Part shown: positions 14,185 through 61,409 of the stretch, piece after piece
Numbering within the stretch: position 1 is the first letter of the stretch
How the letters are laid out: each line of letters starts with the position of its first letter
Origin: Prochlorococcus sp. AG-355-I04
GTDB lineage: Bacteria; Cyanobacteriota; Cyanobacteriia; PCC-6307; Cyanobiaceae
Direction: 5' to 3'
DNA: 64,000 nucleotides
NCBI GenBank assembly: GCA_003280915.1
Contig: QCDL01000007.1
Location: 1-64,000, forward strand
Position numbers and translations under genes: made by a program
The notes under the pieces: model-generated
The model's input: the letters and a program-made list of their open reading frames with translations, nothing else
Databases searched by the model: none
What the model was told of the DNA's origin: nothing

Positions 14185-14226
14185 CTTTACTCTTAGTTTT
14201 TAGTAAGCTGTAATGCTAATTCCCTG

Positions 14227-14298
14227 GCCCCATCGTCTAGAGGCCTAGGACACCTCCCTTTCACGGAGGCGACAGGGGTTCGAATCCCCTTGGGGCTA
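14227..14298 (+). tRNA. trnE: tRNA-Glu (anticodon TTC)
   Basis: A 72-nt cloverleaf can be drawn by hand. The acceptor stem GGCCCCA pairs with TGGGGCT (one G-U), the anticodon stem CCTCC/GGAGG holds loop CTTTCAC with TTC at 14261-14263, and the T-arm is AGGGG-TTCGAAT-CCCCT, followed by discriminator A. No CCA is encoded. In cyanobacteria this glutamyl-tRNA also supplies the tetrapyrrole pathway through glutamyl-tRNA reductase. Confidence 0.95.
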
Positions 14299-33549: not shown

Positions 33550-33607
33550 GATGGGGGAAACCCCATACTCCTCACACACTAAATCGCCCGATTAATCGGG
33601 CTTTTTT
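33550..33607 (+). ncRNA. yfr1: Yfr1 regulatory RNA
   Basis: The RNA has the three diagnostic parts in order. A 5' hairpin ATGGGG-GAAA-CCCCAT (33551-33566) comes first. The unpaired motif ACTCCTCACACACT (33567-33580) follows. A 3' terminator hairpin GCCCGATT/AATCGGGC (33586-33601) ends in six T. Its position between guaB and trxA is the known location in Prochlorococcus. Published work describes Yfr1 as an abundant, almost universal cyanobacterial sRNA that represses porin-type mRNAs through the CU-rich motif. Ends are set by eye. Confidence 0.93.
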
Positions 33608-56826: not shown

Positions 56827-57924
56827 TTATTGATTAAGTGATCCCCAGTTACTTGCTAAATCAAAACCTTTTGTCTCATCACATGAGCCACCAAGATCAT
56901 TGACGATAGTGCATGTGTTATGAACTGCCACAGTGATAGTGTTTCCTTCCATCATTAGTCCATCGACAAAAATTTGATTAGAAGAGAGTGGGATAGAACT
57001 TTGCTTGCTTAAATTATTGACTAATTTTGAAGCAGGCTCTTGCTCCTTAAATATAACTTTGACATTTTCTTCCTTTAACTCATTTAAAACTTTTGATATG
57101 TTCTGAGGCCTCAGGCTAGATGAATGACCTAAGAAATCTAATAAACTTATTGTTTCAAAACCAAATGCATCGCCATAGTAATCCATAGCTTTGTGTTTTG
57201 AGACAATTACACGATTTGAAGAAGGGATAGTAGATACTTGTTTAACAATCCATTTATCAAGATCTTCTAGTGTTTTGTCAAAAGTTTTGAATCTATTAGA
57301 GATAGCTTTGCGTAGTTTTCTTTCAGGCACATCTTTTTTAAGACTTTTTGATACGACTTTACCCATCTTGATGATGTTATGAGGATCATGCCAGACATGT
57401 GGATCCACGCCTCCGTGATCATGATGGTCGTGGTCATCATGATCGTCATGTTTCTTTGCTGAGTGTCCATGATCGTCGTGGTCATCATGATCGTCATGTT
57501 TCTTTGCTGAGTGTCCATGATCGTCGTGGTCATCATGGTCACTATGATCGTCAATATCAATTGCGCTTACGCCTAAAACAACAGTGCTATTTCTCTTCAC
57601 CCAATTCCTCATTGCGGGTGTCATTTCTGTCCCTAAAGTAAAAACTTTATCTGCCTTTTTTAATAATCTTGCCTGTTTTGGAGAAATTTTTAAATCATGA
57701 ACATCTTGTTTTCTATCTACTAGACATATAACTTCATCGGAAGGGAGTGCTATAGATTTAACGATATCGCAGGTAAGAGGCTCAACTGCTACATAGTTTT
57801 TACTTGCAGCAAAGGCACCGTTTATATTTATTGAGAATAATGCCGCACTAGCGATAAGTGAATTTCGGATAGATACTTTTTTATGAGATATATAGCTTGA
57901 AAAAATTCTCTTAAAAATTGACAT
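56827..57924 (-). CDS. znuA: Zinc ABC transporter substrate-binding protein ZnuA, His-rich
   Basis: The 365-residue periplasmic binding protein has a signal peptide (SLIASAALFSININGAFA). The zinc-binding body carries the family motifs around KQDVHDLKISPKQ (His ligand), GVDPHVWHDPHN, and VIFKEQEPASKLV. A His/Asp-rich loop (residues about 124-175) contains two exact 16-residue repeats of HDDHDDHDDHGHSAKK type, coded by two exact 48-bp tandem copies. Such loops are thought to gather zinc ions. It is divergent from znuC with a Zur-type site between. Confidence 0.95.
   Translation of the reverse strand: MSIFKRIFSSYISHKKVSIRNSLIASAALFSININGAFAASKNYVAVEPLTCDIVKSIALPSDEVICLVDRKQDVHDLKISPKQARLLKKADKVFTLGTEMTPAMRNWVKRNSTVVLGVSAIDIDDHSDHDDHDDHGHSAKKHDDHDDHDDHGHSAKKHDDHDDHDHHDHGGVDPHVWHDPHNIIKMGKVVSKSLKKDVPERKLRKAISNRFKTFDKTLEDLDKWIVKQVSTIPSSNRVIVSKHKAMDYYGDAFGFETISLLDFLGHSSSLRPQNISKVLNELKEENVKVIFKEQEPASKLVNNLSKQSSIPLSSNQIFVDGLMMEGNTITVAVHNTCTIVNDLGGSCDETKGFDLASNWGSLNQ
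57431..57526. repeat. Two perfect 48-bp tandem repeats in znuA
   Basis: 57431-57478 and 57479-57526 are identical over all 48 bases, encoding 16 residues each in the His-rich loop. A partial third copy follows. The perfect identity implies a recent duplication or active homogenisation, and copy number is likely to vary among strains. Confidence 0.9.
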
Positions 57925-60772: not shown

Positions 60773-60919
60773 TTAATTTTTGTCTTTCTTTTGTGTTGGT
60801 AAGTATTTTTCGGGATTATTTTCAATATAAGTAAGCGAATATTTGACAACACCCACTATTACTAAAATAAGAGCAATTGCCGAAATAATAAAAATTATTT
60901 TTTTGTAAATGCTTTTCAT
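60773..60919 (-). CDS. 48-residue single-span membrane protein
   Basis: A leftward frame gives MKSIYKKIIFIISAIALILV, one transmembrane helix, followed by KYSLTYIENNPEKYLPTQKK. The ordered N-in basic anchor and a polar tail with a Pro make it plausible as a real small membrane protein. Function unknown. Confidence 0.55.
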   Translation of the reverse strand: MKSIYKKIIFIISAIALILVIVGVVKYSLTYIENNPEKYLPTQKKDKN

Positions 60920-60984
60920 GAATTTTTTATGTTTTTATTATTTTTTTCATCAACGCAAAATTTTTCAGAAAGAATTAAATAATT

Positions 60985-61115
60985 AGTAATTTATACTGTA
61001 GCCTTTTAAATTACCTACGGAGTAAATTAAATACATCAGAAACTCCTCACACACTTTTTTCTGATTATTTTAAAAGTATTCGACTGCAATTTTTGAGTAC
61101 TTTTTGTATTTTTTC
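60985..61115 (+). ncRNA. Yfr10-like sRNA candidate carrying the Yfr1 motif
   Basis: ACTCCTCACACACT at 61042-61055 is identical over all 14 bases to the Yfr1 motif at 33567, but sits in the loop of a hairpin (ATCAGAAA 61035-61042 with TTTCTGAT 61058-61065). An upstream 15-bp stem with one mismatch (60987-61001 with 61015-61029) contains TATACT (60992-60997), a possible -10 element. A weak AAAAGTA/TACTTTT hairpin and T-rich run (to about 61115) could end the RNA. From the literature I recall that Yfr10 RNAs share the Yfr1 motif in a different structure. Boundaries are uncertain. Confidence 0.55.
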
Positions 61116-61177
61116 GATGTGCCAGTTAAGATAGAGGTCTATTAGGTATTACATATTTTAGAATTAGGTGTGATATT

Positions 61178-61280
61178 AAGTGTGTGTGTAGGAGAAATTG
61201 ATTTATTTCAGTGGAAACAAGGAAACACTTGATTTAAGTCGATTTTTAAAAAGATCTCTCTCTGAGGGGTCTTTTTTTTT
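61178..61280 (+). ncRNA. Yfr2-family sRNA
   Basis: The transcript has two copies of GGAAACA (61213 and 61221), which I recall as the Yfr2-family core. It sits inside a hairpin (AAATTGATTTA 61195-61205 with TAAGTCGATTT 61235-61245, two wobble pairs). A terminator hairpin AAGATCTCTC/GAGGGGTCTT (61251-61273) precedes nine T. A -10 candidate TATTAA is at 61174-61179. The 5' region GTGTGTGTAGGAG (61182-61194) is complementary to the Yfr1 motif with one bulge. Ends are set by eye. Confidence 0.72.
61251..61280 (+). terminator. Terminator of the Yfr2-family RNA
   Basis: A 10-bp stem with TCT loop (three wobble pairs) is followed by an uninterrupted T tract at 61272-61280, a typical factor-independent terminator. 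Confidence 0.75.
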
Positions 61281-61409
61281 GGGATTATTAGAAATAAATT
61301 TCAGATTCTGAACATAAAAACATATATGCTTTCTTCCAAAATAATCAGTTCATCATTTCAAATTAGTAATTTAATTCGTTAGATTATGATCTGTTAAATT
61401 CTTCTGTTA

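Follow-up and report, generated by a model that had tools for sequence, protein, structure and literature searches.

The two small RNA genes that lie in tandem at the locus under study are very probably the pair known in Prochlorococcus MED4 as Yfr18, of the Yfr10 family, and Yfr5, of the Yfr2 family, and we consider this the best explanation of the locus as a whole. This identification draws on what we observed of its sequence, RNA families, synteny, spacing and conservation in and beyond the window, by which we mean the whole 64-kb stretch of DNA from Prochlorococcus sp. AG-355-I04. The initial annotation was right in seeing an RNA with the Yfr1 motif beside a Yfr2-family RNA, and the pair is already known. 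Its statement that crosstalk among Yfr1, Yfr2 and Yfr10 has been published, with known partners, agrees with two papers (PMC2518516 and PMC6778093). The tandem placement, which it put forward as worth testing, has been in print since 2008, when Yfr10, Yfr12 and Yfr18 were reported to adjoin Yfr2, Yfr4 and Yfr5, pairing between the motifs was proposed and a 270-nt RNA was marked as the joint precursor of the sister pair, MED4 Yfr10 and Yfr2 (PMC2518516). In 2019, pull-downs with Yfr1, Yfr10 and Yfr2 were described; the RNase E cut of Yfr2 was abolished by Yfr1 or Yfr10, Yfr1 repression was reversed by Yfr2 in an E. coli reporter, Yfr10 was seen to rise in darkness and Yfr2 in high light or nitrogen limitation, and the Yfr10 homologues of high-light strains were placed upstream of Yfr2 homologues, a closeness possibly enhancing their interaction (PMC6778093). 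Because Yfr18 is not named in PMC6778093, these tests bear on it by analogy. What our analysis adds is a census of how widely the tandem is kept.

Searching the 64-kb window with Rfam at the gathering cut-offs returned four RNA genes, every one on the plus strand (Table 1). The downstream RNA of the tandem matched the Cyano-1 covariance model, which we take to be Rfam's name for the Yfr2 family, and it bears all the hallmarks of that family, namely a 5' antimotif, a GGAAACA repeat in a hairpin loop and a 3' hairpin with a T run. Consistent with the equation of Cyano-1 and Yfr2, the four strong Cyano-1 matches in MED4 sit on the published yfr2 to yfr5 (PMC1242208). The upstream RNA passed the cut-off of the Yfr10 model and has the feature of that family, a motif ACUCCUCACAC in a hairpin loop; Rfam places it there, and its homology to MED4 Yfr18 suggests that it is expressed as a short RNA. 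Although it carries the same 14-mer as Yfr1 (RF01116), we rejected its assignment to Yfr1, in which the motif lies between two stem-loops rather than in a loop. The covariance search that the initial annotation had suggested for Yfr2 and Yfr1 thus gave Cyano-1 and Yfr1 matches above cut-off, with the upstream RNA falling to Yfr10, and its picture of two sRNAs in tandem with complementary motifs is backed by Rfam, by synteny with MED4 and by conservation.

Table 1. Features of the tandem locus and other RNA genes in the window, all on the forward strand.
Feature	Position	Strand	Basis
tRNA	14226-14298	+	Rfam at gathering cut-off
Yfr1, the window's other carrier of the 14-mer	33551-33604	+	RF01116, 58 bits vs. 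gathering 38
Span equivalent to MED4 Yfr18 (complement 972284..972388)	60968-61074	+	Alignment lift-over; MED4 coordinates from table in PMC2518516
Candidate -10 of upstream RNA, TATACT block (inferred)	60992-60997	+	Surrounding GTAATTTATACTGTAGC identical in 43/51 aligned loci
Yfr10-family sRNA including 3' hairpin (MED4 Yfr18 counterpart)	61035-61116	+	RF02362, 50.3 bits vs. gathering 43; synteny
Motif ACTCCTCACACACT in hairpin loop	61042-61055	+	Exact match; 8-bp stem
Terminator-like hairpin with T-rich tail, between both RNAs	61073-61106	+	RNAalifold stem
Element TGTGCCAGTTA (usually TGTGACAGTTA or TGTGACAATTA), upstream of Yfr2-family gene	61118-61128	+	Sequence conservation
Conserved GATATT block upstream of Yfr2-family RNA	61172-61177	+	Aligned loci
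Yfr2-family sRNA, Rfam core (MED4 Yfr5 counterpart)	61180-61249	+	RF01701 Cyano-1, 76.6 bits vs. gathering 41
Antimotif GTGTGTGTGTAGGAG, bulged U at 61189	61180-61194	+	Sequence; duplex prediction
Span equivalent to MED4 Yfr5 (complement 972088..972176), including 3' hairpin	61184-61277	+	Lift-over; table in PMC1242208

One of the genomes compared (G015) was taken as MED4 because its Yfr10 match (346661-346738) has exactly the published coordinates (PMC2518516), and in view of the coordinates of its Yfr2-family matches. Comparison of 54-64 kb of the window with 965-980 kb of this genome revealed an inverted order in which 13 of 13 tested ORFs matched, and the window pair sits where MED4 has Yfr18 and Yfr5. 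Among the neighbouring ORFs, the one at 56827-57924 has His/Asp-rich repeats and matches MED4 in two separate pieces; its product presumably resembles a zinc-binding ZnuA-type protein. Lift-over from MED4 placed both published RNAs on the pair, with Yfr18 running from 61074 back to 60968. For Yfr18 the published table lists only RNAs of 29 and 76 nt (PMC2518516), and for Yfr5 one of 89 nt is given (PMC1242208). We note that 76 and 29 nt add up to the annotated 105 nt of MED4 Yfr18 (L064); if the 76-nt piece were the 5' part, the cut would lie after the second base of the motif, which recalls the processed end of Yfr12, reported mid-motif.

The window pair agrees with MED4 Yfr18-Yfr5 in neighbourhood, order, strand, motif and a spacing of 138 nt between the first base of the motif and that of the GT run, but differs from it as follows: 1) the MED4 antimotif has 3 GT units vs. 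5 in the window; 2) the leader 5' of the motif differs; 3) the element between the genes reads TGTGACAATTA in MED4 vs. TGTGCCAGTTA in the window. MED4 Yfr10-Yfr2 (L065) shares the architecture and the complementary motifs, but its spacing is 160 nt, the hairpin sequence 3' of its motif is different and its surroundings gave no match to any of the 13 window ORFs. MED4 has three tandem pairs plus yfr3, beside which we found no Yfr10-type partner, and the source genome of the window has a second tandem pair, of the Yfr10-Yfr2 type, on the minus strand at C13:9348-9583 (L068).

To count the tandem across genomes we used a strict pattern (CTCCTCACACA, 124-154 bases, GTGTG, up to 8 bases, AGGAG), which misses other spacings or motifs. 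Among 266 genomes of the genus it occurred in 187, and among the 87 good ones in 76, with no match for a reversed-pattern control. A family-wide draw of 251 genomes yielded the pattern in 16, all from this same genus, and in none from the other 58 of the 59 genera. In a sample of 151 genus genomes, many of which are incomplete, Rfam gave a Cyano-1 match for 131 and a Yfr10 match for 123. Of the 79 genus genomes lacking the strict pattern, we re-searched 18 for degenerate pairs, including all 11 good ones: five of these 11 (G055, G064, G095, G099 and G140) have a Yfr10-family match close upstream of a Yfr2-family match with altered motif or spacing, the Yfr10 match being under cut-off in G055 and G140, and the remaining six have no such upstream match at E up to 1. 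At three loci (L100, L102 and L105) the upstream motif is decayed or missing and the antimotif is kept; at L108 both are changed. Since the antimotif stays in some genomes with a decayed or missing upstream motif, the neighbour is not required. In viral contigs, neither the pair pattern nor an 18-mer centred on the motif region was matched exactly.

For comparison of individual loci, 121 fetched loci and the window were reduced to 82 distinct pairs by leaving out loci near contig ends, identical repeats, reverse-complement matches and L001-L004, which are copies of the window and of L068. We typed 51 of these as window type, 25 as Yfr10-Yfr2 type and 6 as unclear, in part by whether the spacing fell below or above 155 nt, which makes the spacing difference between the types partly one of definition. 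Among 49 distinct window-type sequences, the 8-bp stem around the motif is formed in 47 to 49 and each pair of the hairpin that follows it is kept in 43 to 49. This hairpin has a few double changes, and the motif stem is nearly invariant with zero double changes, so covariation lends it no support; the stems of the Yfr2-family RNA showed double changes at several pairs in the RNAalifold analysis of the aligned loci.

As the initial annotation had stated, the 14-mer in the loop of the upstream RNA is identical to that of Yfr1: exact matches occur at 33567-33580 and 61042-61055, and the window has no others even when up to 2 mismatches are allowed (0.12 expected in shuffles). Its complement GTGTGTGTAGGAG occupies 61182-61194 within the longer antimotif run, and we obtained the same predicted duplex as before, of 12 pairs with a single bulged U. 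The initial annotation had put this complement about 130 nt downstream in a Yfr2-family RNA; the spacing given above is 138 nt. When the isolated RNAs of the 51 window-type loci were folded, the mean unpaired fraction was 0.91 for the motif and 0.87 for the antimotif; in MED4 Yfr5 alone, the antimotif was predicted to be mostly paired (unpaired 0.16). The window copy is unusual in two respects, a substitution in its upstream element (see below) and 5 GT units instead of 3 in the repeat of its antimotif (61180-61189), the count being 3 in 49 of the 51 loci and 4 in one. This amounts to repeat-length variation at a pairing site, and the longer repeat gave a somewhat stronger predicted duplex, at -23.9 kcal/mol vs. 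-20.8 kcal/mol for the commonest form.

The conserved element between the two genes, usually TGTGACARTTA, recurs (at up to 2 mismatches) at a distance of 71-74 nt 5' of AGGAG in 15 of 17 Yfr2-family genes, including MED4 yfr2, yfr4 and yfr5 but not, at the same tolerance, MED4 yfr3; in the window type it stands 72 nt upstream. A longer exact pattern for it occurred in 43 of 251 genomes of the family and 8 of 59 genera (42 genomes and 7 genera without G363, whose match looks doubtful by eye). The element accompanies many Yfr2-family genes, including ones without a match to the strict tandem pattern, and the window copy has an A to C change seen in 1 of 51 loci. It may be CGRE1, a motif that a 2018 DNA Research paper on the regulator PMM1637 (GntR) is said to define. 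The hairpin and this conserved element between the genes suggest that the two RNAs are transcribed or controlled separately. Co-regulation, as envisaged in the initial annotation, is on the same grounds doubtful, all the more as Yfr10 and Yfr2 are reported to respond differently (PMC6778093).

Upstream of the first RNA, the TATACT block is a candidate -10 judged from the sequence, but the 5' end of MED4 Yfr18 lifts to a position 24 nt further upstream, which counts against this reading. A simple scan of 60900-61400 listed neither TATACT nor GATATT as promoter, and with 3 promoter-like sites against an expectation of 2.6, and 0 terminator-like ones, it supports neither the -10 nor the hairpins. 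We also observed that the leader at 61014-61023, CCTACGGAGT, could pair both with the motif (through GGAGT) and with the antimotif (through CCTAC). It is exact in 25 of 51 window-type loci and absent in MED4; a GGAG able to pair with the motif was present in the leaders of 41 of 51 window-type loci vs. 0 of the 31 others, and in 408 of 10200 letter shuffles of the window-type leaders. This GGAG is common to related genomes by descent, and variable.

By analogy with the sister RNAs, we surmise that the Yfr18 and Yfr5 counterparts would be made mostly as separate short RNAs, that the loop motif of the upstream RNA would, like that of Yfr1, bind mRNAs, and that the 5' end of the Yfr2-family RNA would pair with this motif in trans. 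Such pairing would withdraw the motif from its mRNA targets, with the Yfr2-family RNA itself being shielded from RNase E. The closeness of the genes may help the two RNAs meet, and occasional read-through would yield a precursor able to pair with itself.

Several other explanations have to be set against this one. That the likeness is fortuitous and the upstream stretch no RNA gene is hardly credible: its Rfam score is only 7 bits above the gathering cut-off, but motif, stem and hairpin are conserved across the 51 aligned window-type loci, and Northern and 5'RACE experiments revealed the counterpart in MED4 (PMC2518516). We also consider it improbable that the locus acts mainly as a read-through unit, a single RNA some 270 nt long whose motif and antimotif are paired in cis, with both RNAs silent until processed. 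The self-pairing read-through RNA of the initial annotation is indeed predicted by folding: the RNA 61003-61274 gave 8.8 expected motif-antimotif pairs at 24 C and 8.2 at 37 C, with an MFE at 24 C of -95.6 kcal/mol vs. -79.1 kcal/mol with the antimotif kept open, and more than 6 cis pairs were expected in 41 of 51 window-type, 19 of 25 Yfr10-Yfr2-type and 3 of 6 unclear loci. The 270-nt precursor marked for the sister pair in MED4 also favors such a unit. However, the Yfr18 RNAs listed in the table of PMC2518516 are the two short ones, the hairpin with its T-rich tail intervenes, 6 of 100 shuffled antimotifs reached the same cis pairing and only 2.3 cis pairs are expected in the second pair of the source genome. 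Nor did we find co-evolution in cis, as cognate duplexes averaged -20.30 kcal/mol vs. -20.23 kcal/mol for permuted ones over the 82 pairs, with 11.8% of 5000 permutations doing equally well (18.5% among the 51 window-type pairs and 21.3% among the other 31). The idea that the tandem owes its retention to a self-paired precursor, made by read-through and storing both RNAs 1:1 in inactive form, with processing within the motif then setting the release of each, strikes us as very unlikely.

Given that some shuffled antimotifs can pair as well in cis and that permuted partners match about as well as cognate ones, we read these data as pointing to a network acting in trans, where any motif is able to meet any antimotif. 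The proximity of the genes might be the functionless leftover of a joint duplication of a two-gene cassette, all pairing being in trans with Yfr1 as the main partner; this we regard as possible but not probable. The two pairs in the source genome and three in MED4, the antimotifs retained beside a decayed motif in some genomes and the lack of a measurably better match between cognate partners would all fit such an origin, but order, strand and spacing range are the same in the 187 genomes of the genus that carry the pattern, which argues against it.

As an instance of the Yfr18-Yfr5 tandem, the locus is ordinary and does not open up a novel type of system; our contribution, the census and the cis/trans test, is one of detail. 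The length of the GT repeat in the antimotif and the conserved upstream element are variables that can be tested, and the locus connects Prochlorococcus sp. AG-355-I04 with an sRNA network that has been studied in an abundant phototroph of the ocean.
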